Assembly (NCBI GenBank): GCA_017983695.1
Contig: JAGOAX010000009.1
Location: 186,001-250,000, forward strand
Origin: Ferruginibacter sp.
GTDB lineage: Bacteria; Bacteroidota; Bacteroidia; Chitinophagales; Chitinophagaceae
Direction: 5' to 3'
Length of the DNA stretch: 64,000 nt
The notes beneath the pieces were generated by a model, which did no database searches, was not told the DNA's origin, and worked only from the letters and a program-made list of their open reading frames with translations. The translations under genes and the position numbers were made by a program. Below, in pieces: positions 1,765 through 61,077 of this stretch (position 1 is the stretch's first letter; each line of letters starts with the position of its first letter).

Positions 1765-3987
1765 ATGAAACAGCTGTTGAATAATATTTTTTATTCTTTT
1801 CCTGTACAGCTTTTTGTGCTGCATTTTAGAAAGTTCCAGGTACTGCTGGTGTTTTGGTATTTGCTTGGTAGTACCATTAACAGCGGTTTTATGAAAACCT
1901 TTGGCGCCGATGCACTTTTTTTTGCACCCGAATATTTAGGCAAAGTTGATATGCTGGCAGCGGTAATTGTAGGTATTGCCCTTGGCGTATTTATCATGAG
2001 CTGGAATGTAACCACATTTATTTTGCATAGTAAGCGCTGTAAATTTTTAGCCACCACATCAAAACCTTTTTTTAAGTATTGCATCAACAATGCAGTACTG
2101 CCCTTACTTTTTATTGTTTTTTATTTTATAAAACTTATCCCTTTTAATAAAAATAAAGAGTTGATGAGTGCCGGCGAAATTACCGTAATAGCAGTGGGGC
2201 TGCTGGCCGGTTTTATCCTGTTGCTGGCAGTTTCATTTATTTATTTTTTTCAGGCCGAAAAAACAATACTCCGGAGTGTGGTACCGATTGTAAGTAATCC
2301 ACAACATTTTAAAGAGGAGTATAACCCGGCAACAAATCCTCAACAGGAAGGTTTTGGAATGAAGGTGGGCTATTATTTTACAGGCAGGTTTCGTTTGCGT
2401 AAGGCAAGAAATGTATCGCATTACAGCCAGGATTTTTTAGATATGATATTTAAACGGCATCACTTTTCTGCCATTACCAGTATTGTACTGGCATTTGTTT
2501 TTCTGGCAGTAGTAGGTTTTTTTTTAGATGATAAATTTTTCCAGGTTCCGGCTGCAGCAAGTATTTTTATTTTTTTTGCTGTAATGACAGCAGTAATTGG
2601 TGCCCTCACTTATTTTTTACAAAGCTGGAGCCTTCCTTTTATAATAGTACTTGTTTTTTTTATTGATATTTTATACAATAATGATATTATTGACCCACGT
2701 AATAAAGCCTACGGGTTAAACTATACCAATAAAACAGAACGGCCGCTATACAACAAGCAAGCGCTGCAACAATTATGTACGCCGGACAAGACAGCTGCAG
2801 ATAAAGCCAATATGCTTACCATACTGGAAAACTGGAAGCAGAAGCAAACAGTACCAAAACCGGTAATGATTTTTATAAATGTAAGTGGAGGCGGTTTACG
2901 CAGCGGCACTTTTGTTATGAACACGCTGCAAAAATTAGATAGTATTACAAAGGGAAGACTTATGCAGCATACTATGCTGATAAGTGGTGCCAGCGGTGGG
3001 ATGCTTGCTGCTACTTATTACCGTGAATTGTATCGTGCTAATTTAACTGCCAACCCTCCAGTTAGTTTAAGTCATCCTGGTTTTACAGATAATATTGCAC
3101 AGGATCTGCTGAACCCGATTTTTTCTTCCATGATAGCAAGGGATATGTTTTCGCCGGCACAAAAATTTACGGTAGGTAATTTTAAATATGTTAAGGACAG
3201 GGGCTATGCTTTTGAACAAAAGCTGAATGATAATACAACAGGAATACTTAATCACCAGATAAAAGATTTTGCTGCAGATGAAAAAGCTGCAAAAGTGCCG
3301 TTGATGATATTTAACTCTACCATCAGCAGGGATGGCAGGCAGATGATAGTCAGCAGCCAGCCGCTGAGTTTTTTGATGAAACCCTTTTTGTATGCCACAG
3401 ATACTTCAGCAAGTCCAGATGCAGTTGACTTTGCAGCATTTTTTGCAAAGCAGGATCCTATGAACCTGCGCCTATTGACTGCATTACGAATGAATGCCAC
3501 CTTTCCTTATGTATTACCAAATGTTTGGCTGCCAACCCAACCTGTTATTGATGTAATGGACGCTGGCTTAAGAGATAATTTTGGCCAGGAAACCAGTTTA
3601 CGTTTTATAGAAAATTTTAAAGACTGGTTACAACAAAATACCGGAGGGGTAATAGTATTGCAATTACGTGACCGCAGAAATGATAACTGGCAGCAACCTT
3701 TTGAAAGCAACAGTATTACCGATGTACTTGTTAAGCCGGCAACCATGCTGCAACACAATTGGTATAAGCTACAGGATTTTTCAGAAACCAATCAATATAG
3801 TTACCTGCATGATGGATTGGATACTTTGTTACACCGCATCAGTTTTATGTATGTACCTAAAAAAGAAGATAAAGGTGCAGCACTAAATTTTCATTTAACA
3901 GCACAGGAAAAAAAAGATGTAATGGAATCTTTTGATAACAGCTATAACCAGGCGGCATTAAAAAAAGTGCTGGAGTTGTTGAAGTGA
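1765..3987 (+). CDS. Patatin-like phospholipase with N-terminal membrane domain
   Basis: This is a predicted serine acyl hydrolase of the patatin family acting on membrane lipids. The first ~320 residues hold several hydrophobic segments (around 60-85, 100-120, 140-160, 230-255 and 265-315) that would anchor the enzyme in the inner membrane. The catalytic half shows the oxyanion motif SGGGLRSG (374-381), the nucleophile elbow GASGG (408-412, Ser410) and the dyad Asp in DAGLRDNFG (Asp599). DAG replaces the commoner DGG, a tolerated variant. It ends 2 bp before a convergent lipid kinase gene, so two lipid-related enzymes are tail to tail. The substrate cannot be read from the sequence. Confidence 0.85.
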   Translation: MKQLLNNIFYSFPVQLFVLHFRKFQVLLVFWYLLGSTINSGFMKTFGADALFFAPEYLGKVDMLAAVIVGIALGVFIMSWNVTTFILHSKRCKFLATTSKPFFKYCINNAVLPLLFIVFYFIKLIPFNKNKELMSAGEITVIAVGLLAGFILLLAVSFIYFFQAEKTILRSVVPIVSNPQHFKEEYNPATNPQQEGFGMKVGYYFTGRFRLRKARNVSHYSQDFLDMIFKRHHFSAITSIVLAFVFLAVVGFFLDDKFFQVPAAASIFIFFAVMTAVIGALTYFLQSWSLPFIIVLVFFIDILYNNDIIDPRNKAYGLNYTNKTERPLYNKQALQQLCTPDKTAADKANMLTILENWKQKQTVPKPVMIFINVSGGGLRSGTFVMNTLQKLDSITKGRLMQHTMLISGASGGMLAATYYRELYRANLTANPPVSLSHPGFTDNIAQDLLNPIFSSMIARDMFSPAQKFTVGNFKYVKDRGYAFEQKLNDNTTGILNHQIKDFAADEKAAKVPLMIFNSTISRDGRQMIVSSQPLSFLMKPFLYATDTSASPDAVDFAAFFAKQDPMNLRLLTALRMNATFPYVLPNVWLPTQPVIDVMDAGLRDNFGQETSLRFIENFKDWLQQNTGGVIVLQLRDRRNDNWQQPFESNSITDVLVKPATMLQHNWYKLQDFSETNQYSYLHDGLDTLLHRISFMYVPKKEDKGAALNFHLTAQEKKDVMESFDNSYNQAALKKVLELLK

Positions 3988-3989
3988 GT

Positions 3990-4895
3990 TTATCTAACAG
4001 GCATTAATAACTTAAATGCATTTTCAATAATCTCAATTTCAAATGTTGCGGCCGTTGCTGCAGGATCACCATCAATATGCAATGGCGCCATAGATGGATT
4101 TTGGATAGTTATTTTTTTAGTTTGAAAATAACCAATATCGGTGCGGTGATATTTTTTATCTTCATAAGGCCGCACTTCTCCTTTGCGTATTTGCTTTATC
4201 ACATTCCACAACATCCGCATCTTACTCATCTTATTTACAATAACAATATCCAGTAAACCGTCATGCAAACTTGCCTGTGGTGCAATAGTAAAATTATTGC
4301 CAAACTGGTTGCTGTTGGCAATGCTGATAAAAAATGCTTCGGTATTGATGCAGCTGTCATTCACCATTAACCCAAAAGGATAGGGTGTAGCTGTTCTGAA
4401 ATTTTTTACTGATTGTTTGATATATGTTTTTAAACCACGTTGCTGTTGTTTGGCAAAATCATGTGCTACCTGTGCATCAAATCCTATACCGCACAACATG
4501 CAGCTGAATTTTTTATTAATATAGAAACTATCGATGTACACTGCATGGTCATTAAAGATCACATCTAAAGCTTTAGTAACAGTTTTTGGGATTTTGGCAG
4601 CAAAGGCCAGGCCATTACCGGAACCCATCGGTATGATACCAATATTTACATCAACACCAAGTAATGCATTGGCAACCTGGTTTACCGAACCATCACCACC
4701 ACAAATAATAATATCGGTAATTTTTTCGGCAGCAATTTTTTCTTTTACATAATTGTAATTGCCTTCTGCATTTGTATGTTCTATTTCGAAAGGGATATTT
4801 TTTTCAATGGTTCTCTTCTTGATCATATCCAGCATCAGCACTTTTCCTTTGGTGCCGGATATGGGATTGATAAAATAAATAAACTTACGGTTCAT
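3990..4895 (-). CDS. Diacylglycerol kinase family lipid kinase (YegS/DgkB type)
   Basis: This is a predicted ATP-dependent lipid kinase of the DAGK_cat family, likely phosphorylating diacylglycerol or a sphingoid-type lipid at the inner membrane. The 301 residues begin with FINPISGTKGK, a conserved first strand. The nucleotide-binding signature CGGDGSVN lies at 65-72, followed by GIIPMGSGNGLAFA. The C-terminal half holds HDGLLDIVIV and HIDGDPA, typical of the YegS fold. It starts 4 nt after the stop of the secreted protein gene at 4900-5343, so the two probably form an operon. The exact lipid substrate is unknown; sphingolipids occur in this phylum and cannot be excluded. Confidence 0.88.
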   Translation of the reverse strand: MNRKFIYFINPISGTKGKVLMLDMIKKRTIEKNIPFEIEHTNAEGNYNYVKEKIAAEKITDIIICGGDGSVNQVANALLGVDVNIGIIPMGSGNGLAFAAKIPKTVTKALDVIFNDHAVYIDSFYINKKFSCMLCGIGFDAQVAHDFAKQQQRGLKTYIKQSVKNFRTATPYPFGLMVNDSCINTEAFFISIANSNQFGNNFTIAPQASLHDGLLDIVIVNKMSKMRMLWNVIKQIRKGEVRPYEDKKYHRTDIGYFQTKKITIQNPSMAPLHIDGDPAATAATFEIEIIENAFKLLMPVR

Positions 4896-4899
4896 GAAA

Positions 4900-5343
4900 T
4901 TATTTTGCAGTAATGGTACCCATATAAATACGCTTAGAAGGAATCATGCTTCTGTCATCGGCGGGATCCATCAGCAGGTATAATTTTATTGGTTTTCCTT
5001 TTGTAAGTAGCGATTTAAGTTTGACACCGGTGAGTATAAACTTGCCGGGTGTACCTACTGTTTCGGGCACGTTTAAAAAAGACAGGCCTGCATTATCAGT
5101 TACTTCTATTGTTCTTTTGTAAACGGTCATACCAATATGCTCACCCTCTATTTGAACAGATAGTTGCTTTAATTTTTTACAGTCAGTTTTTTTAATATTG
5201 GTTCCGCCACCAGTAGTTTCATCTGTCTTTGTTATGTAAGCTCCTTTTTTAACCCCGTTTAAAAAAACGGTAACAGTATTTTGTGCAATTGCTGCAGTAA
5301 ACATAAAAAAGAGTATTAATGCTGTAAATAATTTATGTTTCAT
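4900..5343 (-). CDS. Secreted protein of unknown function
   Basis: Not recognised beyond being exported. I take the ATG at 5341-5343 as start because it opens a clean signal peptide (MKHKLFTALILFFMFTAAIA, cleavage before QNTVTV); an upstream start would add 12 residues before it. The mature part of about 125 residues is rich in beta-strand patterns, with a Lys/Thr-rich stretch near the start and no cysteine pairs or catalytic motif I can name. It lies immediately upstream of the lipid kinase and may be translated together with it. Confidence 0.6.
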   Translation of the reverse strand: MKHKLFTALILFFMFTAAIAQNTVTVFLNGVKKGAYITKTDETTGGGTNIKKTDCKKLKQLSVQIEGEHIGMTVYKRTIEVTDNAGLSFLNVPETVGTPGKFILTGVKLKSLLTKGKPIKLYLLMDPADDRSMIPSKRIYMGTITAK

Positions 5344-9016: not shown

Positions 9017-9062
9017 GCGTATAAGTTTATGTAAAGAAACAAATTGAAAAAGTAAAATGCAA

Positions 9063-9078
9063 TACCCTGTTAACGGTA
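9063..9078 (-). promoter_or_regulatory. TACC-N8-GGTA operator candidate (NarL-heptamer geometry), copy 1
   Basis: TACCCTGTTAACGGTA, 46 bp upstream of the gene at 9016. A -7-like TTTCTTTA (9032-9039, minus strand) begins 23 nt after the site, as at the other copies. Confidence 0.55.
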
Positions 9079-9109
9079 TATACAAAGCATAAAACCTGGA
9101 GTAATAGTT

Positions 9110-15364: not shown

Positions 15365-15394
15365 AAAGGTTGTATTAAAATAGTAACAGCAAAA

Positions 15395-15410
15395 TACCCT
15401 TTGGTGGGTA
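15395..15410 (+). promoter_or_regulatory. TACC-N8-GGTA operator candidate, copy 2
   Basis: TACCCTTTGGTGGGTA, 44 bp before the ATG at 15455. A -7-like TATGTTTA (15433-15440) begins 22 nt after the site. Confidence 0.55.
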
Positions 15411-15454
15411 CTTAATAAAATAGCAGCTTGTTTATGTTTACAAAAAAATTAAAT

Positions 15455-49295: not shown

Positions 49296-49850
49296 TTACC
49301 TTGCATACACCCCATTGGGTGATACCACACTAGCCGGCCCACCGGTAATACCAACAGGCGGTATAATTATATTTATATTCTCTCCATTTACTTTTAAAGA
49401 AACTTTACGGGCATGTATTTCCACTCCCAGCTGGTAAAATGGAGGCATGGCCGAAGGCTCCCGGTTAATAAGATACGGCGCTGTAAAATCACTCATCTCT
49501 ACTTCAAAAGTATAGCCCGCCACTACACATTTACTTACTGCTTTATCTGCACCAATTTGAATATCGAATGTTGCATTTAAAACCGGCGCCTGTTCAAATG
49601 GGGTATCTGCAAAAATATTTGGCCCAAAATATTTGCCCACCGTTTCATCGGTACTTACAAAACCCATTACCGCCGGCATGGCTGCAGGATCTGGTTGCCA
49701 CAGTATCATACCGCTTGCAGCATTACCAACAGGTGTGTTTACCATGCGGCCTAAGTGTACTATTACATTGGGCATTTGCAGATCAGGAGAAGTTACTGCT
49801 ACTAAATCTATTCCACCTTCCCAGCTCATCCATTTGGTTACATTACTCAT
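49296..49850 (-). CDS. Protein of unknown function, divergent from kinase of system 2
   Basis: Not recognised. The 184 residues have no signal peptide or membrane segment and start MSNVTKWMSWEGGIDLVAV. Strand patterns such as FDIQIGADKAVSKCVVAGYTFEVEMSDF and ARKVSLKVNGENINIIIPP suggest a beta-sandwich. Many Pro and Met residues. It diverges from the kinase gene at 49998, and the perfect TACCC-N6-GGGTA site lies between them, 58 bp from this start, so both could be controlled by it. Confidence 0.6.
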   Translation of the reverse strand: MSNVTKWMSWEGGIDLVAVTSPDLQMPNVIVHLGRMVNTPVGNAASGMILWQPDPAAMPAVMGFVSTDETVGKYFGPNIFADTPFEQAPVLNATFDIQIGADKAVSKCVVAGYTFEVEMSDFTAPYLINREPSAMPPFYQLGVEIHARKVSLKVNGENINIIIPPVGITGGPASVVSPNGVYAR

Positions 49851-49908
49851 AAAAAAGGTTTAGGGTTTTATAATGTAACAAGTTAACCACGGTATTTAAT
49901 TATTGTAA

Positions 49909-49924
49909 TACCCTGCACAGGGTA
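49909..49924. promoter_or_regulatory. TACC-N8-GGTA operator candidate, copy 3 (perfect palindrome)
   Basis: TACCCTGCACAGGGTA, a perfect 7-2-7 inverted repeat. It is 21 nt before a -7-like TACTTTTA (49946-49953) of the kinase gene and 58 bp from the divergent gene. Confidence 0.65.
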
Positions 49925-49997
49925 TTTTGTAATGCAGGGTGGTTTTACTTTTAATTATTTAGTTTTAAAATTTATCTTTCAGCCTATTAACAACCAG

Positions 49998-51704
49998 ATG
50001 AGGAAAACATTATTTCTTTTTTTTGTACTGATGTTTTGTGCTAATTTTTTAACTGCACAAACCGATACTATTCCCCAACTGATGGAAAAGCTGGAGGCTA
50101 CCAGTGATAATAAGGCAGCTGTAATAACCATAAGCCAGCTGCTTAAAAGTAAAGAGCTGAGTGAAACAAACCGGCTTGCGCTGCAAATTACTTTAATTCA
50201 TAAGTACCAGGAGTTGCAGCAATGGGATGTATGCCTCAATTATTGCCAGCAACAGGTTACTGAAGCACATGCACAAAACAATACGCTGGCCGAAGCCACT
50301 TTTTATAAAATGATTGGTAATACTTATTACTATATTCCTGATAAGGATAAAGCGATAGCGTACTGGAAAAAATGTATTGGTATAAGTGAACCGGCACGGT
50401 TTAATTTATTGCTGGAACAATGCTATCATAACATTGGTTCGGTTTACCTGGAACAATCAGAGCATTATGACTGGGCAGAAAAATATTTACAGCAATCTGT
50501 AAAGCTGAGTATTGCTAATAAAACAGATGAGCAGGCATTGGGCCGCCTGCATTACAGATTGCTGGCCACTTTGTATGAGCGTACCAATCAATTAGACAAA
50601 GCCTTAAAAGCATATGAAGATGTTATTACAAAAAGCAGGCAGGCAAAAGACTCTTCTAATATTGCAGAAGCATTAATGTTTTCGTCTGGCTTACTAATAA
50701 AGCAAAAGAAATTTAATGAGGCATTGCAGGTAAGCAACGAGGCACTTGCCATAGCAAGAAAATTTGCAAAACTGGATATGGTGCGTACTGCACTCGATTT
50801 TCATTCAATGAATTTATATGCTGCAGGAAAATATAAAGAGGCTTATGAGTTTAAAACCGAAGTTGCCGAAATTATTCTTACACGGTATAACAGCGACCTT
50901 AATAATAAACTGAGCGAAGCGGAAGCAAAATTTAAAACAACTGAAATACAGCATGAGAAAGAAATAGCATCAGTAAAAGCTAAAAAAGAAAAACAGTTTT
51001 ATATGCTGGCATTTATCAGTTTGCTTGGTATTGCAGGCTCTGTATTTTATTACTTGTACCAAAAAAGAAATGTAAAACAGAAAATACAAATGCAGCTCCA
51101 GGTACAGGAAGAGAAGGAAAGACTGAGTAGGGATTTACATGATAACCTGGGTTCACAAATGGCATTGTTGTCTAATAACATCGAAAACCTGGATAGTAAT
51201 TTTAAAAAACAACAACCGCTTGATGAAAATATTGAAAAGGTAAAAGGCACATCTAAACAACTATTACAAACCTTACGGGAAACAATATGGATATTGAATA
51301 AAAAGCAGGTAACAGCACAGGAATTCTTTGATAAACTGGTGGATTACACACACCGGTACTTACAATTTTATCCCGGTATGCAATTGCAGGTAAAAGAAGA
51401 TTTTTCAATTCAGAAAACGCTTAATTCCAATGAGGCGCTGCAACTTTTTCGTATTTGCCAAGAGGCAGTATCAAATGCCTGCAAATATTCGGGCAGTACA
51501 ATTTTGCTTTTGCAGGGAAATTCGCAGCAAACATTTTTTGAGATTATCATCCAGGATTTTGGAAAAGGATTTGATACGAACAAAATAAGTGAAGAAGGAC
51601 ATTACGGCTTAAAAAATATGCAACAGCGGGCAACAGCTATAAATGCAACATTGATAATAACTGCAGCCGCAGACAAAGGTGTTGCTGTAGCAATAAAAAT
51701 ATGA
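49998..51704 (+). CDS. TPR sensor histidine kinase, HisKA_3 type (system 2)
   Basis: A membrane kinase with a periplasmic or sensory TPR region. The start at 49998 opens a signal peptide (MRKTLFLFFVLMFCANFLTA). Residues ~25-290 form TPR-like helix pairs (KYQELQQWDVCLNYCQQQ, AEALMFSSGLLIKQKKFNEALQVSNEALAIARK). A helix-coil (KTTEIQHEKEIASVKAKKEKQ) leads to one membrane helix (FYMLAFISLLGIAGSVFYYLY). The kinase core has EKERLSRDLHDNLGSQM with His381 and a HATPase domain (EAVSNACKY, IIQDFGKGFDTNK, GHYGLKNMQQRATAIN). Its regulator follows 52 bp downstream with its own promoter and operator. Confidence 0.92.
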   Translation: MRKTLFLFFVLMFCANFLTAQTDTIPQLMEKLEATSDNKAAVITISQLLKSKELSETNRLALQITLIHKYQELQQWDVCLNYCQQQVTEAHAQNNTLAEATFYKMIGNTYYYIPDKDKAIAYWKKCIGISEPARFNLLLEQCYHNIGSVYLEQSEHYDWAEKYLQQSVKLSIANKTDEQALGRLHYRLLATLYERTNQLDKALKAYEDVITKSRQAKDSSNIAEALMFSSGLLIKQKKFNEALQVSNEALAIARKFAKLDMVRTALDFHSMNLYAAGKYKEAYEFKTEVAEIILTRYNSDLNNKLSEAEAKFKTTEIQHEKEIASVKAKKEKQFYMLAFISLLGIAGSVFYYLYQKRNVKQKIQMQLQVQEEKERLSRDLHDNLGSQMALLSNNIENLDSNFKKQQPLDENIEKVKGTSKQLLQTLRETIWILNKKQVTAQEFFDKLVDYTHRYLQFYPGMQLQVKEDFSIQKTLNSNEALQLFRICQEAVSNACKYSGSTILLLQGNSQQTFFEIIIQDFGKGFDTNKISEEGHYGLKNMQQRATAINATLIITAAADKGVAVAIKI

Positions 51705-51706
51705 AA

Positions 51707-51722
51707 TGCCTTACAGAGGGTA
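51707..51722 (+). promoter_or_regulatory. TACC-N8-GGTA operator candidate, copy 4
   Basis: TGCCTTACAGAGGGTA, 2 bp after the kinase stop. An exact -7 element TAATTTTG (51745-51752) starts 22 nt after it. The RR start codon is only 4 nt beyond, so the transcript may be leaderless. Confidence 0.6.
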
Positions 51723-51756
51723 TAGGTAAATTTAAATCTCTTTTTAATTTTGTACA

Positions 51757-52425
51757 ATGTTAATTGCCATTGTTGACGATAAACCATATTTGCGGCAGTC
51801 GCTTAAAGAAAAGCTGGCATCCATTGAAAATGATGTTACTGTTATTATGGAAGCAAGTGATGGTACAGATTTTCTTAAAAAAATGAAAGCCGCCCAGCAA
51901 AAGCCGGATGTGGTATTGATGGATATAGAAATGAATGAACTGAATGGTATAGAAACCGTGCAAAGGGCTGCCCCACTTTACCCCTCCGTAAAATTTATTA
52001 TGCTTACGGTGTTTGATGATGACGAACGAATTTTTAATGCCATTAAAGCAGGGGCACACGGCTATTTATTAAAAGAAGAGACGGCACAAAATATTATTGA
52101 TGCTATTTACCAGGTACATCAGGATGAAGGTGCACCCATGAGCCCCGGTATAGCCCGTAAAGCATGGAAATGGCTTACCGCAATAACGGCGCAGCCATTC
52201 AGCGAAAAAAAATCTGCTGCAACAAATACAATAGAGCCGCTGAGCGAAAGGGAGAAAGAAATTTTAAAATTCAGCATGGAGGGTAAAGAGTACGCACAAA
52301 TTGCCGAGCAACTTTTTTTAAGCAAACATACAGTACGCCAGCACATGAAAAATATTTACAGCAAGCTGCATGTAAGCAGTAAAATTGAAGCCCTGCAAAT
52401 TAGTTTAAAAAATAAATGGATTTAA
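51757..52425 (+). CDS. NarL/FixJ-type response regulator (system 2)
   Basis: A two-component regulator, the expected partner of the kinase at 49998. The receiver (1-122) has DD at 7-8, phosphoacceptor Asp56 in VVLMDIEMNELNG, LTVFDDD and GYLLKEE. The C-terminal LuxR helix-turn-helix (~155-218) has LSEREKEILKFSMEGKEYAQIAEQLFLSKHTVRQHMKNIYSKLHV. The start cannot move downstream because the acidic pair is near the N-terminus. NarL-family proteins bind heptamer pairs such as TACYYMT-N2-AKRRGTA, and the 16-bp sites around this gene have that geometry, so it is the best candidate to bind them (inference). Confidence 0.93.
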   Translation: MLIAIVDDKPYLRQSLKEKLASIENDVTVIMEASDGTDFLKKMKAAQQKPDVVLMDIEMNELNGIETVQRAAPLYPSVKFIMLTVFDDDERIFNAIKAGAHGYLLKEETAQNIIDAIYQVHQDEGAPMSPGIARKAWKWLTAITAQPFSEKKSAATNTIEPLSEREKEILKFSMEGKEYAQIAEQLFLSKHTVRQHMKNIYSKLHVSSKIEALQISLKNKWI

Positions 52426-52476
52426 AGTAATGCTGTTCTCAAAATATGTCCCGGTAAAATACTTTTCTGCAAAAAA

Positions 52477-52492
52477 TGCCTCACAGAGGGTA
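52477..52492 (+). promoter_or_regulatory. TACC-N8-GGTA operator candidate, copy 5
   Basis: TGCCTCACAGAGGGTA, differing from copy 4 at one base; 50 bp before the start at 52543. Its -7 match (AAGATTTT, 52514-52521) is weak. Confidence 0.55.
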
Positions 52493-52542
52493 TAGTTTAA
52501 GAAACCAATAAAGAAGATTTTTATGCCATAAAATATGTTATT

Positions 52543-52896
52543 ATGGCTAGCAACACAAGTATTGAAGTTACTCCATCAACGGTACAGCAAGAATCTTACA
52601 CTGATTACTCAGCGTTACTGCTATTGCCAGTGGCGGCAGTGGTAGCGCACCAGTACAGCAAAAAACAAATGCGTAAACTTGGAAGAAAAATGACGTGGCA
52701 GTTATTGAAAACGAAAGTAAAATCTATGTTTTCGTTTAAGAAAGGAAGTGGAAACAAACAGGGTATAAAGTTGCTGCTTATTTTATTGGGTCTGGGTTTT
52801 ATTGCTGCAGTAGGTATTTTTCTCAGCTGGAGCATAGCCATTACACTGCTGGTAGTGGGCGGACTAATTGGAATAATCTATTCTGCTAAGGATTAA
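52543..52896 (+). CDS. Small membrane protein of unknown function
   Basis: Not recognised. The 117 residues have no signal peptide. One hydrophobic segment (~23-38, YSALLLLPVAAVVAHQY) is followed by a basic stretch (KKQMRKLGRKMTWQLLKTKVKSMFSFKKGSGNK) and two closely spaced helices (~76-112, LLLILLGLGFIAAVGIFL and IAITLLVVGGLIGII). It carries a TACCC-type site in its promoter, directly after the regulator, and may be an envelope target. Confidence 0.6.
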   Translation: MASNTSIEVTPSTVQQESYTDYSALLLLPVAAVVAHQYSKKQMRKLGRKMTWQLLKTKVKSMFSFKKGSGNKQGIKLLLILLGLGFIAAVGIFLSWSIAITLLVVGGLIGIIYSAKD

Positions 52897-52944
52897 TTGC
52901 AGGAGAGCCACAAGGTTTTCAGTTTTTATAATTATAAATAAAGC

Positions 52945-54633
52945 ATGAAAAAAATATTAATCAGTTTAACAACAATACTACTCAGCGGAATATTATTTGC
53001 TCAAACAGCTTATGATCCTTTAACAGACCCCATTGTTCAAAAACCAGCTAACCCGGCCCTGTTTTTAGAGAATATGAGAGTAATGAGGCAATTAGAGATT
53101 TTACAGGCAATAGCATACACGAAGGAAAAATGTAAGGCTTTTGAAGACGATTTCCATAAAACTAAAAAATGGAATTCAACAATACAGGAAGTAGTTGTAA
53201 GAAATAACTCAGGGAATAATGCTGAATTAGAAAGTAAATACGAAATCGCTAAGCAACTGTACTATCAGGTGGTTTGGAACAAAAATGGTTACAGCGGTTA
53301 CCATACAGATGATCCAATTGTAGGTTTTTATTATTTTAAAACCTGTTACGATTTAGGGAGGCTCCTTTCTAAAATGGGAGATTACAAAAACTCTTATGAA
53401 TTTTATACTGCCGCAGTGGATTTTTATAAAACAGATTCTTCACTTTATTTTTCGGCAGTGGCCGGGCTTAATGGAATAAAAAGCAAAACTATTTCGGCAG
53501 CAACAGAAGGCAGTGCTATATTTAAAAATATAAACAAGGCGATTGAATTAAAACCCAATAACGCCGCATATATTTCTACAAGAGGAAAGTATTATTTGGA
53601 AATAACAAAGGACACCGTAAAAGCACTTGCAGATTTTAATAAAGCGGTACAGTTAAATCCAAAAGACGAGAGTACTTACGAGTACCTGGCAATAATCAAT
53701 TACTATCAATCAAACTTTAAAGAGGCAATTAATAATATCACCAAATGCATAGTAATAAATAAATACGAAGACTCGTATTTTCAAAAGAGGGCTGTATTTT
53801 ATACTTATTTAAAAAATTATCAGGCGGCAGTAGCAGATTATGACGAGGCTATTTTAATAAATCAAACTAAAATTGAGTATTATATAAGCCGGGCATTATG
53901 CCATGTTACGCTAAAAAATTATGCGGCTGCTTATGATGACTATGGGTTTTCTACTATGCTAAATCCCAATGATGCTGATTCAAAAAAAGAATTGCAAAAA
54001 CTAGACCCCTTATTAAAAACTGAGTATGAAAAAATTGGGATGACATCACAAAATGCCTATCAATTTTTTTTACAAAGAGCTGATAAGTTAGCCTTACTAA
54101 GTGAAGGTTTTAAATTAGGACCTGCTATAATGAATTATTATAAATGTATTCAGATAGAGCCCAAAAACCCTGTGCCTTATAATAAGGCCGGCATATTATT
54201 CAGGCAATTGAATATGAATAAATATGCCGAGCAGTTTTTACGCTATGCTGCTTATGCCGATGGTAAAAACCCGGAATACTTTTTTCATTTGGGCAAGTAT
54301 TATTCTGACAATGAACAGGATTATAAAAAAGCTTCGGGTTGTTATGATACTGCGGCTATACTTGGTTCTGTAAATGTAAGTGGCTATCTCACCAATGGAG
54401 AAATAAAATATATCAAACTCAATAATAACGAAGGAGCATTAAAGGATTTTAATAAAGCCGTGGCATTAGAACCTGCTAATAAGGATGCTCTTAACAGAAG
54501 AGGAATTTTTTATTTTGAGGGTTTAAAAAATTACAAAGCAGCATTAGCCGATTTTGAATCTGTTAAAAAACTTAACCCTAACGATAAAGTAAATAACAGC
54601 AATATAGAAGCATGTAAAGAAAAATTGAAATAG
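52945..54633 (+). CDS. Secreted tetratricopeptide-repeat protein
   Basis: A 562-residue exported protein; signal peptide MKKILISLTTILLSGILFA. Most of the rest is TPR: about ten units, for example NINKAIELKPNNAAYISTRGKYYLEI, ALADFNKAVQLNPKDESTYEYLAIINYYQSNFKEAI, AVADYDEAILINQTKIEYYISRA and ALKDFNKAVALEPANKDALNRRG. TPR proteins act as scaffolds or binding platforms; no enzymatic domain is attached. It lies 48 bp after the small membrane gene and precedes other secreted genes on the same strand. Confidence 0.85.
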   Translation: MKKILISLTTILLSGILFAQTAYDPLTDPIVQKPANPALFLENMRVMRQLEILQAIAYTKEKCKAFEDDFHKTKKWNSTIQEVVVRNNSGNNAELESKYEIAKQLYYQVVWNKNGYSGYHTDDPIVGFYYFKTCYDLGRLLSKMGDYKNSYEFYTAAVDFYKTDSSLYFSAVAGLNGIKSKTISAATEGSAIFKNINKAIELKPNNAAYISTRGKYYLEITKDTVKALADFNKAVQLNPKDESTYEYLAIINYYQSNFKEAINNITKCIVINKYEDSYFQKRAVFYTYLKNYQAAVADYDEAILINQTKIEYYISRALCHVTLKNYAAAYDDYGFSTMLNPNDADSKKELQKLDPLLKTEYEKIGMTSQNAYQFFLQRADKLALLSEGFKLGPAIMNYYKCIQIEPKNPVPYNKAGILFRQLNMNKYAEQFLRYAAYADGKNPEYFFHLGKYYSDNEQDYKKASGCYDTAAILGSVNVSGYLTNGEIKYIKLNNNEGALKDFNKAVALEPANKDALNRRGIFYFEGLKNYKAALADFESVKKLNPNDKVNNSNIEACKEKLK

Positions 54634-54672
54634 TAACGGATTTAATTTAAATGATAACTTAAATATACACTG

Positions 54673-55149
54673 ATGAAAAAAATGTTTTTATCCCTGATGC
54701 TTAGTTTATTTGTTATGCTGTCTTTTTCGCAACATGCTGGATACGATAAAATACGAAGAGACTATCCAGGAAGGGGGAATAAAGAAATGAGGGAAGCAAA
54801 AATTGCCGAGCTGGATAAACAATACAGAATAACAATTGGCACCAGTAAACTCAAAGCATCTTACAACCCGGATGGCATTGAACTAAAGGATACTGATTTA
54901 CGTCTTGTTGGCCTTTTATTCAGGGGTGGTAAACTGGATGTAGATGAATTATACATTGTAATACAAAAAGACGGAGCAGCAGTTGATTCCTTAACTACAT
55001 CCTGTGGGTCAAATGCAAAATGGAAAGACTTTTATTTTCATCTTAACAATGTTGTGCCGAGTGAGAATTACAGGATTGATGTTTACTCCAATAAAGAAAG
55101 AGCATTCCTGGGTAGCAAAAATTTTTATTTAAGAAAACCAAAAGAATAA
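54673..55149 (+). CDS. Secreted protein of unknown function
   Basis: Not recognised. A signal peptide (MKKMFLSLMLSLFVMLSFS) is followed by ~139 residues: a charged helix with RRDYPGRGNKEMREAKIAELDKQY and then a beta-rich domain (LVGLLFRGGKLDVDELYIVIQKDGAAVDSL, WKDFYFHLNNVVPSENYRIDVYSNKERAFLG). It lies 39 bp after the TPR gene and 31 bp before the next, so an operon is likely. Confidence 0.6.
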   Translation: MKKMFLSLMLSLFVMLSFSQHAGYDKIRRDYPGRGNKEMREAKIAELDKQYRITIGTSKLKASYNPDGIELKDTDLRLVGLLFRGGKLDVDELYIVIQKDGAAVDSLTTSCGSNAKWKDFYFHLNNVVPSENYRIDVYSNKERAFLGSKNFYLRKPKE

Positions 55150-55180
55150 ATATCTCATTATAAAAAATTAAACCTACAGT

Positions 55181-55894
55181 ATGAAAAAAATACATTTAAC
55201 TGCTCTTCTGTTTATATGTTCAATAATTGCTTTTAGCCAAAAAAAGAAAACTACCGTTGAGGGTAAAGCACTCTACTTTGGGGTAGCTTATGCAAAGCCT
55301 GTTAGAACTGAATTTGATAAATACATGGCAGTAATAAGTGATTCGCTTAAATTAACCAATCCGTTGCTGGTAAAGAATAGCTACGGTATTCATGCAGGTG
55401 TAGTTTTTAGAAATGGCAACGGCGAATTTGAAGCAGGAGGTAGTTATGTATTTGGCATTACGGCAAAGAGCAGCAATGCTAATAATAGTACTTCAGCAAC
55501 CTTAGCCACCAACACATTCGATATTCATTTTGGATACAGCCAATATATTGCAGGGCCGCTTTTTATAGGTTTTGATTTGGGAGTAATAAGTAATGATGGA
55601 AAATTTACTAACAAAGGCGGCAATGGAGCTCTTTTTGAGGAAACTCCCGAAAGCAATAACCCCTTTAAAGGCTATGTATTTTTTGCCAGACCAAAAGGTG
55701 GTTTCTTTTTCCCTTTTAAAAAAGATAAACTGTCAGGGTTTAAGCTGAATGCTTTTTATGATTTAAGTATGTCGAAGTATGATTTTTATAATAAAGATAT
55801 TTTTCCTGACAGGTTAAAAAATTATAAAGGAGCTACTAAATCTTCTTTTAAAGGGTTGGGTGCTCAGGCCAGTTTGGTATTGTCGATAGATTAA
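55181..55894 (+). CDS. Predicted outer-membrane beta-barrel protein
   Basis: Not recognised by name. A signal peptide (MKKIHLTALLFICSIIAFS) precedes ~218 residues with repeated strand patterns (ALYFGVAYAKPVRTEFDKY, GIHAGVVFRNGNGEFEAGGSYVFGI, TFDIHFGYSQYIAGPLFIGFDLGVIS, GFKLNAFYDLSMSKYDFY) and a final strand GLGAQASLVLSID. These fit an 8- to 10-stranded barrel (inference). It is the last of three secreted genes in one direction. Confidence 0.65.
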   Translation: MKKIHLTALLFICSIIAFSQKKKTTVEGKALYFGVAYAKPVRTEFDKYMAVISDSLKLTNPLLVKNSYGIHAGVVFRNGNGEFEAGGSYVFGITAKSSNANNSTSATLATNTFDIHFGYSQYIAGPLFIGFDLGVISNDGKFTNKGGNGALFEETPESNNPFKGYVFFARPKGGFFFPFKKDKLSGFKLNAFYDLSMSKYDFYNKDIFPDRLKNYKGATKSSFKGLGAQASLVLSID

Positions 55895-55951
55895 TACAGC
55901 AAAGATTATTGCAATAGCCAAAGAAATAAATTCAATGTTAACTCCAGTAAA

Positions 55952-55967
55952 TACCCTTCCCGGGGTA
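55952..55967 (+). promoter_or_regulatory. TACC-N8-GGTA operator candidate, copy 6
   Basis: TACCCTTCCCGGGGTA, 47 bp before the start at 56015. TATCTTTA (55991-55998), a good -7 element, starts 23 nt after it. Confidence 0.6.
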
Positions 55968-56014
55968 TATGGCTTACCAGTAAGTTAGAGTATCTTTAAA
56001 AAAAAGGATATCGT

Positions 56015-56335
56015 ATGAAAAAATTACTATTCATTTTAACGATGTGTTTTACCAGTTTTGCAATGGCGCAAAATACTACCGGTGTAAGAACTATTTCATT
56101 AGATTCTTTAAAGAAATATAAGATTGGTATTGCGAAAAAGGACAGCGCTAAAATATATGTAGTAAAGAGTAATGAAATACCCTGGAGCCAAATGAGTATG
56201 CTACAAAAGGGTAAGTACATTGTAAAAACTGTACTTAATGAGTACCGGATAAAATATCCTGTTACTTTTTGGTTATTGGCATCGCTGTTAGCATTTTGGG
56301 TATTAAAGCAAATAAGCAGGCTGTTTAAAAAATAA
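56015..56335 (+). CDS. Small exported membrane protein of unknown function
   Basis: Not recognised. The 106 residues start with a signal peptide (MKKLLFILTMCFTSFAMA), have a short periplasmic part, and end with one membrane helix (~80-100, FWLLASLLAFWVLKQISRLF) and a basic tail. It is the first gene after a TACCC-type site and is followed by the related-looking gene at 56363, with 27 bp between. Confidence 0.6.
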   Translation: MKKLLFILTMCFTSFAMAQNTTGVRTISLDSLKKYKIGIAKKDSAKIYVVKSNEIPWSQMSMLQKGKYIVKTVLNEYRIKYPVTFWLLASLLAFWVLKQISRLFKK

Positions 56336-56362: not shown

Positions 56363-57391
56363 ATGCGGTATTCAATTTTGGTTTTCGGTTGTTTTTTATT
56401 ACCCTTTTTTACTTTGGGTAATGCCGCAATGCCAGGTGTTTGGCAAATAGGTTTTGGTGGCCGCTTTTTACCCTTAATTGCAGCAGACAGCAGTAACTAC
56501 GGAAAGATTAAAATGCAATCCGAACTGGTGTTAATAGATTTGTACAATGGCTTTAGTGTAGTAAAGGGTACATATTATATGTACAATGCCCAGGATACTG
56601 AAGTTGAAATGTACACGGGCTATCCGCAACATGGCGATTACAATCAGGATATTGTAAAAAATATAATAATTGGCGATGCACCTTTTAATATGAAGGTGTT
56701 GGTTAACGGTTTTGAAGTGACCAGTGCTGTTTATAATGACAGTTCATTTTCTGCCAATAATTTAAGCACTACAACAACACCGGCAATACATGCCAGTAGA
56801 AATTACCAAAATTGGTTTCTATGGAAAATGAAATTTGCGCCCAAAAAATTAACTAATATTACAGTTTATTTTGTAACCAATAACAGCAAGGCTAAATTAA
56901 CCAGTGGGTATAGTAAATCAAAAGGGCATGCATTTGGATACGTGTTAGAAAGTGGTAAAGCATGGGCGGGTAATATTGATACAGGTAATATTTTCATTAG
57001 AATGATGGATGGTATTACACTAAAAAATATTTCAGGTATTCTACCCGATTCCACTATAAAGGAAAGCAACGGAAAACTGGCGTATAGTTTTATAAACAAA
57101 GATCCTTCAGCAGGCGATAATTTACTGATTTGGTACAATAAAGATTTAGATAGTATAGCATTTACCCAAAACGTGTTACCCAAAACAGTTGTTTACTTTG
57201 CGGCCATCAATAATTTTCCTGTTAATGATTTTGCAAATAGTAAAAGCTGGCAAACAATTAGCTTAACAGATTTTACACCACAAGATAGCGGACTGGGAAA
57301 ATTAGTTATTGGGTTATTAATTGGAGGAGTATTAATTATCGGAGTTGTTATTTGGCTTGTGATAAAATTGATTGGCAGGCTGCGAAAATAA
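56363..57391 (+). CDS. Exported C-terminally anchored protein of unknown function
   Basis: Not recognised with confidence. A signal peptide (MRYSILVFGCFLLPFFTLGNA) is followed by a ~285-residue extracytoplasmic domain rich in strands (KIKMQSELVLIDLYNGFSVVKGTYYMYNAQDTEVEMYTGYP, WFLWKMKFAPKKLTNITVYFV) and one C-terminal membrane helix (GKLVIGLLIGGVLIIGVVIWLVIKLI) with a basic end. The N-terminal pattern loosely recalls DUF4424 proteins (low certainty). It shares its topology with the gene before it, so the pair may work together in the inner membrane. Confidence 0.6.
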   Translation: MRYSILVFGCFLLPFFTLGNAAMPGVWQIGFGGRFLPLIAADSSNYGKIKMQSELVLIDLYNGFSVVKGTYYMYNAQDTEVEMYTGYPQHGDYNQDIVKNIIIGDAPFNMKVLVNGFEVTSAVYNDSSFSANNLSTTTTPAIHASRNYQNWFLWKMKFAPKKLTNITVYFVTNNSKAKLTSGYSKSKGHAFGYVLESGKAWAGNIDTGNIFIRMMDGITLKNISGILPDSTIKESNGKLAYSFINKDPSAGDNLLIWYNKDLDSIAFTQNVLPKTVVYFAAINNFPVNDFANSKSWQTISLTDFTPQDSGLGKLVIGLLIGGVLIIGVVIWLVIKLIGRLRK

Positions 57392-57934: not shown

Positions 57935-60247
57935 ATGGCAAAAAAATTAGGTGTTTTATGTGTTTTACAAATTCTTTTTGTTGCCGCTTTTGCTCAGCAG
58001 GGAAAGGAAATTGACAGTATTCAAAAATTGATACAAAGTAATATAGCCGATAGCCTGAAAGCTAAGAACCTCTATAAGCTCGGAAAACTATATGCCGATG
58101 CACAGGATTCCACAAATGCCGTTAACAGTTATTTTAAAGGGATACGTATAGCAAAAGAAAACAAACTGCATCAGCTCGTAGCTTATGGGAATAACGAAGT
58201 TGGGTTTTTATATGAGTTAATGAATGAAAATATTTTGGCCCTTGGCTATTATCGTCATGCCATTAATTATTCCAAACAATATGGGTTACTCCCCGAACTA
58301 GGTAAAGCATATAAGAATACCGCTTTTGCGTATGGAAATATAGGAAACCTTGCTACAGCTGTAGTTTATGACGACTCCACTATTGCAGTGTATGAAAAGT
58401 TGGGGAATTTATTGGAAAAAGCTAATGCCATTAATAACCAGGGGCTTCGTTATCATTACTTAAATAAAAACAACCAGGCAATAGTTAATTACCAAAATGC
58501 ATTGGACATTTACGATTTTTTAAAAGAAGAAAAGAAAAAAGCAAATACGGTGCTAAATATTGGTCAGGTACATTTGCAGCAAATAAACTACAATATAGCC
58601 CTCGATTTTTTTAACAGGGCAAAAGCAATTGCCATTACAACAAACAACCCACAATCGCAGATGCTGGCAGAAAATAATATTGGCGTTGTGTACTTTGACC
58701 AGAAGCAGTATGCACTGGCAATTCCTTATTTTGAAAAAACACAGGAACTGGCAAAAGCCAACAATAACACAAATATGTACCTGCAGTCCTGTAACAATCT
58801 GGGCACTTGTAATGAAAGCTTAGGTGAGTTTGCAAAAGCAGAAATGTATTATAAACGGGCAGAAGCTGAACTTTTAAAGGGGAATCAGTATGAAAGCATT
58901 TTGGTAAACTATATTAACCAGGCTTCGTTGGCAGGCAGACAAAACAAGTTAAACGACTGTCTGGCATTTTGTGATAAATGTTTTTTTTACTTAAACAATT
59001 ATCAGGGGTTAGATAAATACAAGCATAGCGTTTTTGAAACAGCAGCTTACGCAAATAAATTACAGGGTAATTATGATAAAGCCTTTATGCTGCAGGATTC
59101 GCAGATTATTTATAAAGATGCCACCATAAACGAAAAAACAAACGCCGAAATATTAGAACTACAAACCAAATATGAAACGGAGAAAAAAGAATTAAGAATA
59201 AGTTTGCTGTCAAAAGCAGATTCTATAAAAGCATTAAGAATAGATAATCAGGCCATTCAAATTAACAGGCAGCAGTTAAGCCTGGCGGCTCAACAGCTTA
59301 CCCTTTCACAAGCCAGCCTGCAAATGGTAAAAGATAGCCTGCTACTGGCAGAAAACAGGCTGGAGCTTATAGACAAGAATTATATTATTAAAGACAATGA
59401 AGCTAAAACTTTACACCAACAGCAATATATTGCCCGGCTGGCACAGGAAAAAAAAATAAAAGATCTGGAGCTAAGTAAGAAGAATAATATGTTGATTGGT
59501 GTAAGCGTACTGGTGCCGTTATTAATACTGGGGGGAATACTTTTTTATAAGAATAAACAGCAACGGCTTAAAAGTAAATTACAAGCACAGCTTTTTGAAC
59601 AACAAAAAATGGCCACCATAAACATTTTAGCAGCCGAGGAAAAAGAAAGAAAACGAATTGCCAGCGATTTACATGATGGGGTGGGGCAATTAATGACTGC
59701 CGCCTGGCTCAATATACAAGCCATTAATACTAAAGCTAAAAACACAGATAATGAAACAGCCGAACTAATAAATAAAACCATGCACCTGGTAGATGAAAGC
59801 TGCAAAGAAGTACGGGCTGTAAGCCACAATATGATGCCGAATGCGTTATTAAAGAAAGGACTGGTAAATGCGGTACGGGAATTTTTAAGCCAAATAAATA
59901 CAAAGGCAACGCAAATAAATTTACAAACCGATAACTTACATAAGCCATTGCCCAACCATATAGAAACAGTGCTTTACAGGATAATACAAGAAAGTGTAAA
60001 CAATGTAATAAAACATGCCGCAGCTACCCGGCTGGATATTAGTATAAACCAGGATGAGGAAGGTATAGATGTAATGATAGAAGATAATGGCAAAGGCTTT
60101 AATTTTAACCAGGCAACCCAAAAAGATGGAATAGGGTTGCAAAATATTAAAAGCAGGATTCAATATTTAAACGGAACAGTGGAATGGAACACCGCCGAAA
60201 ATAAAGGAACTTTAGTGGCCATACATATACCCGAAACAAAGGCATGA
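57935..60247 (+). CDS. TPR sensor histidine kinase, HisKA_3 type (system 3)
   Basis: A 770-residue membrane kinase. A signal peptide (MAKKLGVLCVLQILFVAAFA) is followed by a TPR array (~30-420: AYGNNEVGFLYELMNENILALGYYRHAI, AMLxNN-type units such as MLAENNIGVVYFDQKQYALAIPYFEKTQELAK), a long coiled coil (~400-510) and one membrane helix (MLIGVSVLVPLLILGGILFY). The kinase core has AAEEKERKRIASDLHDGVGQLM with His580, then the HATPase domain (RIIQESVNNVIKHAAA, IEDNGKGFNFN, GIGLQNIKSRIQYLNG). The regulator start overlaps its stop by 4 nt, so the pair is translationally coupled. Confidence 0.92.
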   Translation: MAKKLGVLCVLQILFVAAFAQQGKEIDSIQKLIQSNIADSLKAKNLYKLGKLYADAQDSTNAVNSYFKGIRIAKENKLHQLVAYGNNEVGFLYELMNENILALGYYRHAINYSKQYGLLPELGKAYKNTAFAYGNIGNLATAVVYDDSTIAVYEKLGNLLEKANAINNQGLRYHYLNKNNQAIVNYQNALDIYDFLKEEKKKANTVLNIGQVHLQQINYNIALDFFNRAKAIAITTNNPQSQMLAENNIGVVYFDQKQYALAIPYFEKTQELAKANNNTNMYLQSCNNLGTCNESLGEFAKAEMYYKRAEAELLKGNQYESILVNYINQASLAGRQNKLNDCLAFCDKCFFYLNNYQGLDKYKHSVFETAAYANKLQGNYDKAFMLQDSQIIYKDATINEKTNAEILELQTKYETEKKELRISLLSKADSIKALRIDNQAIQINRQQLSLAAQQLTLSQASLQMVKDSLLLAENRLELIDKNYIIKDNEAKTLHQQQYIARLAQEKKIKDLELSKKNNMLIGVSVLVPLLILGGILFYKNKQQRLKSKLQAQLFEQQKMATINILAAEEKERKRIASDLHDGVGQLMTAAWLNIQAINTKAKNTDNETAELINKTMHLVDESCKEVRAVSHNMMPNALLKKGLVNAVREFLSQINTKATQINLQTDNLHKPLPNHIETVLYRIIQESVNNVIKHAAATRLDISINQDEEGIDVMIEDNGKGFNFNQATQKDGIGLQNIKSRIQYLNGTVEWNTAENKGTLVAIHIPETKA

Positions 60248-60894
60248 ACAATATCTATAAAATAAAATTGGCAATGGTAGATGACCATCAAATTGTAATT
60301 GATGGCATTATGGCATTATTACGGGAAGATAAGGAGCTGGATATAGTGGCTACTGCCAACTCTTCTACCCGTATGCTGCAATTGTTGCAGCAACATGAAG
60401 TGGATATTTTATTGACAGATGTGGTAATGGAAGGCATTAGCGGACAGCAATTGGCAAAAGAGGTGAGAAAACTTTTTCCCTCCATAAAAATTATAGCCCT
60501 TAGCATGAGCGGCGTTGGCGAAATAGTAGAAGAAATGATAAACGATGCTGATATTTCAGGTTATTTATTAAAACAAACTGGTAAACAAGAACTGGTAGAT
60601 GCCATTAAGAAAGTGTATAGCGGTGGGCAATACTTTCAGCCAAAAATATTAGATGAGCTGGCAAAACAAGCCGAAGTAAGAACAGAAACGGATGCAGCAC
60701 ACCTAACCAGCCGGGAAAAAGAAATAATTGTATTGCTGGAAAAAAACCTCTCCAGCAAAGAAATAGCAGAAACACTTTTCATTTCTGTAAGAACAGTGGA
60801 AACACATCGCAAGAATATCCTTAAAAAAACCGATACTACAAACCTGCTTAGCCTGCTAAAATGGGCTAAGAGCCATAAAATAATAACAGGTTAA
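60244..60894 (+). CDS. NarL/FixJ-type response regulator (system 3)
   Basis: The cognate regulator of the preceding kinase (ATGA overlap). The receiver (1-125) has DD (13-14), phosphoacceptor Asp59 in ILLTDVVMEGISG, LSMSGVG and GYLLKQT. The LuxR-type helix-turn-helix (~150-212) has LTSREKEIIVLLEKNLSSKEIAETLFISVRTVETHRKNILKKTDTTN. Possible targets are not evident apart from the neighbouring gene at 61078. Confidence 0.94.
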   Translation: MNNIYKIKLAMVDDHQIVIDGIMALLREDKELDIVATANSSTRMLQLLQQHEVDILLTDVVMEGISGQQLAKEVRKLFPSIKIIALSMSGVGEIVEEMINDADISGYLLKQTGKQELVDAIKKVYSGGQYFQPKILDELAKQAEVRTETDAAHLTSREKEIIVLLEKNLSSKEIAETLFISVRTVETHRKNILKKTDTTNLLSLLKWAKSHKIITG

Positions 60895-60944
60895 GCTTTA
60901 CTGCCTTCTCCAAACAGCTACTTACTCCCGAAATTTTTAAAAAA

Positions 60945-60960
60945 TACCCAATCAACGGTA
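60945..60960 (+). promoter_or_regulatory. TACC-N8-GGTA operator candidate, copy 7 (weakest)
   Basis: TACCCAATCAACGGTA, 117 bp before the start at 61078. A CATTTTGC (60983-60990) starts 22 nt after it, but a better -7 element, TAACCTTG (61050-61057), lies nearer the gene. Confidence 0.35.
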
Positions 60961-61077
60961 TAGGAGTGCTTTTTTAATGCTGCATTTTGCATCTGGTTGC
61001 GATATTATAAAATACGTAGCTCGCCGTATCTATTATATTTTTATAAAATTAACCTTGCAATGTATTAATCAAAAAAT

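Follow-up and report, generated by a model that had tools for sequence, protein, structure and literature searches.

To our knowledge, little has been described of the operators that response regulators use in Bacteroidota, polysaccharide-use systems excepted. Among the described systems, the E. coli NarL/NarP 7-2-7 operators resemble the sites analyzed here in being 16-bp inverted repeats with TAC...GTA edges and a NarL-type regulator nearby, and the E. coli class-II NarL promoters (ogt NarL II and yeaR) resemble them in the position predicted here, near −43/−44.5 (PMC7419079). Porphyromonas gingivalis FimS/FimR similarly pairs a TPR sensor kinase with a LuxR-type regulator of surface proteins; the FimR paper (PMC1974823) makes no mention of a FimR consensus or palindrome. 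The envelope stress systems LiaSR/VraSR share with the system here a HisKA_3 kinase, a NarL-type regulator, autoregulation (putative here) and envelope targets. Here we describe dyads that, in a little-studied Ferruginibacter-like bacterium, mark a conserved promoter set including a nearby sensor-regulator pair.

Four 16-bp sites had been reported in the window (the whole stretch of 64,000 nucleotides that was analyzed) by a sequence-only reading. On re-reading of the letters, their sequences and coordinates were exact, and all four had been placed correctly with respect to their gene neighbours, with the small correction that two of the four start with TGCC, not TACC. The AAA noted before the sites is part of AAA/TTT-type flanks, and the four belong to a longer dyad of 18–20 bp with the consensus AATACCC-N6-GGGTATT. 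These sites are real, but those at 9061, 15393 and 60943, along with one just past the window end, had been missed. The window thus contains seven dyads at no more than one mismatch (9061, 15393, 49907, 51705, 52475, 55950 and 60943), compared to 0.12 per Markov-simulated window (maximum, 1 in 60 simulations); the eighth lies 20 bp beyond the window end and 50 bp before a PQQ/BamB-like gene. We distinguish type 1, the plain dyad, from type 2, the subtype TRCCnYACAGnGGGTA with a conserved ACAG spacer; the two types have half-sites and promoter geometry in common (Table 1).

Table 1 Features of the window.
Feature	Sequence	Position	Strand	Remark
P0006, 184-aa protein of unknown family		49296..49850	-	most conserved target of the site
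TPR sensor histidine kinase (TPR_12, HisKA_3, HATPase_c)		49998..51704	+	likely start 49998
P0001, NarL/LuxR-type response regulator (Response_reg + GerE)		51757..52425	+	from domain matches
P0003, 117-aa small membrane protein		52543..52896	+	probably heads a gene run to 55894
P0004, 106-aa exported/membrane protein		56015..56335	+	first gene of two-gene operon
P0005, 342-aa exported/membrane protein		56363..57391	+	second gene of operon
16-bp site	TACCCTGCACAGGGTA	49909
16-bp site	TGCCTTACAGAGGGTA	51707
16-bp site	TGCCTCACAGAGGGTA	52477
16-bp site	TACCCTTCCCGGGGTA	55952
Type-1 operator (putative)	AATACCCTGCACAGGGTATT	49907..49926	.	between divergent gene P0006 and kinase
Candidate −7 box, kinase promoter	TACTTTTA	49946..49953	+	19 bp after site
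Type-2 operator (putative)	AATGCCTTACAGAGGGTATA	51705..51724	+	before regulator P0001
−7 box, regulator promoter	TAATTTTG	51745..51752	+	ATG 4 bp on
Type-2 operator (putative)	AATGCCTCACAGAGGGTATA	52475..52494	+	before P0003; same 20-mer at L056/G067 ortholog copies
Type-1 operator (putative)	AATACCCTTCCCGGGGTATA	55950..55969	+	before P0004; site also at G061 homolog
−7 box	TATCTTTA	55991..55998	+	21 bp after site
Further site	AATACCCTGTTAACGGTATA	9061..9080	-	44 bp before exported 276-aa protein
Further site	AATACCCTTTGGTGGGTACT	15393..15412	+	42 bp before outer-membrane beta-barrel protein
Further site	AATACCCAATCAACGGTATA	60943..60962	+	after second kinase/regulator pair; 115 bp before 965-aa T9SS-like cargo gene

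When the whole genome was searched for WATACCC-N6-GGGTATW at one mismatch, 20 sites were found vs. 1 for the reversed control pattern; across 93 genomes of the genus, the counts were 577 and 144, with strong enrichment in many species and none in a group of mostly small genomes. Sites were intergenic in 21 of 27 cases (11 of 17 in this genome and 10 of 10 in G035) compared to 1 of 21 for the control (p = 2 × 10−7), and six of the 25 listed sites of this genome (at most one mismatch) fall in a 14-kb stretch surrounding the two-component system, where 0.08 are expected (p ~ 2 × 10−10). The motif is thus not equally frequent inside genes, and it is conserved in relatives, where orthologous targets keep their sites; the sequence-only reading had named the opposite of either outcome as grounds for its own rejection.

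Orthologs of P0006 are present in 10 of 90 genomes, and the exact site precedes the start in all nine that are readable there, the tenth having an assembly gap; among these copies, the six spacer bases vary and the half-sites are fixed. In three genomes, P0006 is not beside the two-component system in the stretch examined, and yet the site is kept. Other orthologous targets keep the site at 42–49 bp in G000, G035, G061, G014 and G067. Six target families besides P0006 keep it across species: the PQQ/BamB-like target (five genomes), an M20 peptidase (two genomes), an OmpA protein, an outer-membrane barrel and two families without a Pfam match. In G061, the site stands at d 45 in the ortholog of the 276-aa exported protein gene, at d 44 in that of the beta-barrel gene near 15393 (whose product has a sub-threshold OMP_b-brl match) and at d 44 in a P0004 homolog (37.5% over 104 aa), and the 20-mer at 60943 is found unchanged in G035 C200. 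As had been proposed, the targets are mostly cell-envelope or secreted proteins. Judging from the sequence comparisons, we consider a conserved envelope regulon with a putatively autoregulated NarL-type two-component system inside it to be genuine and apparently undescribed; no description of the motif or regulon was found in the literature searched, i.e. open-licence papers.

The regulator P0001 belongs to the NarL/LuxR family by domains scoring over cut-off (Response_reg, 82 bits; GerE, 62.9 bits), and it falls short of the NarL equivalog (NCBIfam PRK10651, 128.6 bits against a cut-off of 250); its best solved-structure match is VraR. For the kinase, the HATPase_c match in the profile search is below cut-off, and none of the best NCBIfam matches (FimS, NarQ and UhpB) comes near its cut-off. 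P0005 has only a sub-threshold match to DUF4424, whereas P0006 has no match in Pfam, NCBIfam, PHROG or PDB, and its fold predicted from two sequences (pLDDT 38.5) was too poor for use. P0006 and its orthologs end in a near-invariant GITGGPASVVSPNGVYAR tail and, in most species, are without a signal peptide. A second TPR kinase/regulator pair is located at 57935–60894 of the window, 5.5 kb downstream of the first; it is also near P0006 in G035, and both here and there a site ending in AATCAACGGTATA comes after the pair.

A consistent promoter geometry was observed, whereby the end of the dyad is usually 43–56 bp ahead of the start codon and a TAnnTTT −7 box follows the dyad at a fixed 20–21 bp (TAnnTT begins at +20 or +21, and a T occupies offset +25 in 42 of 44 sites); the promoter-proximal half-site GGGTAT is better conserved than the other. 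The TAnnTTTG −7 box of Flavobacterium psychrophilum extends from −12 to −5 (PMC9723704). If this placement holds here, the fixed spacing would put the centre of the dyad at −42.5 to −43.5 from the predicted start sites, in place of the −33 box and within the range of class-II activator sites, −41.5 to −44.5, where a site overlaps the −33/−35 region. A 7-2-7 site at −44.5 serves E. coli NarL for activation (PMC7419079), and from this likeness in position we infer activation. At the regulator promoter, about 4 bp separate the −7 box from the ATG, a short gap seen in all orthologs inspected, so that the P0001 message is probably leaderless.

Being short inverted repeats, the sites might be regarded as a mobile repeat, a terminator or chance matches, but this non-regulatory reading has no strong point and is extremely improbable: the spacer varies while the half-sites do not, the offset to the −7 box and the distance to the start are kept, the latter between orthologs, the sites lie upstream of genes and not after them, and the control pattern is nearly missing from intergenic DNA. 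Chance or repeat origin is ruled out by the reversed-pattern, intergenic and Markov-simulation controls. The sites are almost certainly regulatory promoter elements.

An autoregulated two-component system is expected to carry an operator at its own promoter that is conserved in orthologs, and such a site was found in all seven orthologs of P0001 with at least 80% identity (G000, G008, G020, G067, G074, G075 and G078), 29–33 bp before the regulator ATG, in the form TRCCnYACAGnGGGTA with ACAG invariant. In six of the seven, the gene after the regulator likewise has a site similar in sequence in front of it; scanning of the G078 stretch gave none, and the centre of the G074 copy reads CTACAAG. 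The gene itself nevertheless varies, its product being a small membrane protein in some cases and large secreted proteins or a lipoprotein-like protein in others; in G067 (L056), the P0003 ortholog is duplicated, with an identical 20-mer before both copies. The autoregulation proposed in the sequence-only reading thereby gains support, with binding putative: the seven conserved promoter sites support autoregulation together with control of the adjacent envelope gene, P0001 is a good candidate reader of the type-2 sites in this genome, and it quite likely autoregulates through them. Common descent could partly account for the ACAG spacer. In L056, a Ferruginibacter MAG, the TPR kinase is split in two frames (3391–4569 and 4448–5131, span 3391–5131), which is either a frameshift or an assembly error; the regulator and sites there are intact.

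Whether P0001 alone governs every site, as the sequence-only reading had it, is a different matter. The sites cluster around its gene, enrichment is seen in all seven genomes with a close ortholog (3.9 excess sites per Mb in genomes with a close ortholog vs. 0.8 in those without, p = 1 × 10−4), and none of the six nearest P0001 paralogs of this genome has a high-scoring site in its 4–5 kb locus. However, the complete genome G061 has 16 sites and the orthologous targets and no P0001 homolog at E ≤ 10−36; P0001 is therefore not the sole reader across the genus, and it is ruled out as the reader everywhere. Sites are likewise abundant in G035, G013, G082, G010, G090 and G073, none of which has a close P0001 ortholog, and the regulator beside P0006 in G035 was rejected as a P0001 ortholog, being an 80% ortholog of a different regulator of this genome. 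The proposed regulon thus stands for the regulator's own promoter and for the envelope nature of the targets but not for the whole set, and a single master is unlikely. It is very likely that another reader exists in the genus; that P0001 reads the type-1 sites in this genome has close to an even chance, if slightly less, and the two subtypes may be read by two proteins.

A plausible alternative, which we rate somewhat below probable, is that the type-1 sites are read by a different regulator, either unlinked or neighbouring, which has the two-component system as just one of its targets. The type-1 regulon outlives P0001 in G061, and among the regulators compared, the only members that the NarL-type set of G061 has in common with this genome are relatives of the second regulator (60244–60894 of the window; 53%) and of the L203 regulator (48%). 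The second regulator is one candidate: it has a further relative in G035 (82%), and a site is found just downstream of the pair in both this genome and G035; however, no site precedes the pair, and a relative is also present in G060, which has few sites. The other candidate is a protein of the CRP/FNR family, given the 5-N6-5 spacing, which CRP/FNR-type sites also have, and the putative class-II position, but the usual CRP/FNR half-sites are TGTGA or TTGAT, and TACCC is atypical. Autoregulation as a route to the reader yielded no regulator gene with a site at its own promoter in G061 or G035. Related regulators with their own dyads near the start, namely TACTC/GGGTA in G014, TGCTC/GAGTA in G022 and TACCACTTTGTGGTA in the L203 clade, favour NarL-type regulators as readers; TACTC dyads were found in G022, G006, G014 and G018. 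A more speculative reading, less likely than not, is that of a conserved Bacteroidota envelope regulon in which operators and targets would stay constant and different lineages would have exchanged the response regulator that reads them; the type of sensor and the half-site sequence (TACCC, TACTC, TACCAC) would then drift from one regulator clade to another.

Conserved elements were also observed before other regulators. The NarL-type clade of L203 (own C36 ~126780), L216 and L208 (MKIPVAIVEDN...) has a conserved dyad, TACCACTTTGTGGTA, 38–75 bp before the start in three genomes, and in a further clade, L214 and L036/L035, the element CTACTACAAAnTAGGTATT is conserved 46 bp ahead of the start. 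In L058, a response regulator/kinase pair is preceded at a distance of 56 bp by the dyad TATACACCAATTAGTGTATT (position 3820), which suggests a TACAC half-site for this clade.

The explanation that we favour, and consider reasonably likely as a whole, is that the dyad is the activator operator of an envelope set with an autoregulated P0001 inside it. The protein bound to AATACCC-N6-GGGTATT would be a dimer, most likely a response regulator of the NarL/LuxR family, with the site centred about 42–43 bp upstream of the transcription start, at the place of the −33 box. Presumably depending on phosphorylation, it would recruit RNA polymerase to the TAnnTTT −7 box and so switch on the conserved envelope and secreted proteins. 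In this genome, the set would include the local TPR kinase and P0001, which would autoregulate from TRCCnYACAGnGGGTA at 51705 and drive the membrane gene next to it from the same subtype at 52475; type-1 sites may be read by P0001 here as well, but in other species of the genus another regulator would have to read them. The finding provides a concrete consensus, a promoter model with fixed −7 box spacing, a cross-species target list and half-sites that vary by clade, which together make the assignment of the regulator and the evolution of the operator directly testable.

Compared to LiaSR/VraSR, the kinase here has a large TPR sensor and is far under the LiaS model cut-off, and no Lia/Vra-type operator or target was recognised. 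The targets of FimS/FimR are fimbriae, unlike the set described here. The 7-2-7 likeness to NarL on which the sequence-only reading relied holds for the TAC-Y-Y/R-R-GTA edges but not beyond, as heptamer positions 6–7 are almost without information; the sites depart from the full consensus TACYYMT-N2-AKRRGTA, with the TAC-Y-Y edge in most of them and two of the four beginning with TGC. Because positions 6–7 are information-poor and 5-N6-5 spacing is common to CRP/FNR sites, NarL geometry is not diagnostic. In contrast to the E. coli NarL system, it is the AAT/ATT flanks rather than positions 6–7 that are conserved, the sensor has TPRs and no nitrate-sensor match above cut-off, and a Bacteroidota −7 box stands in place of −35/−10.
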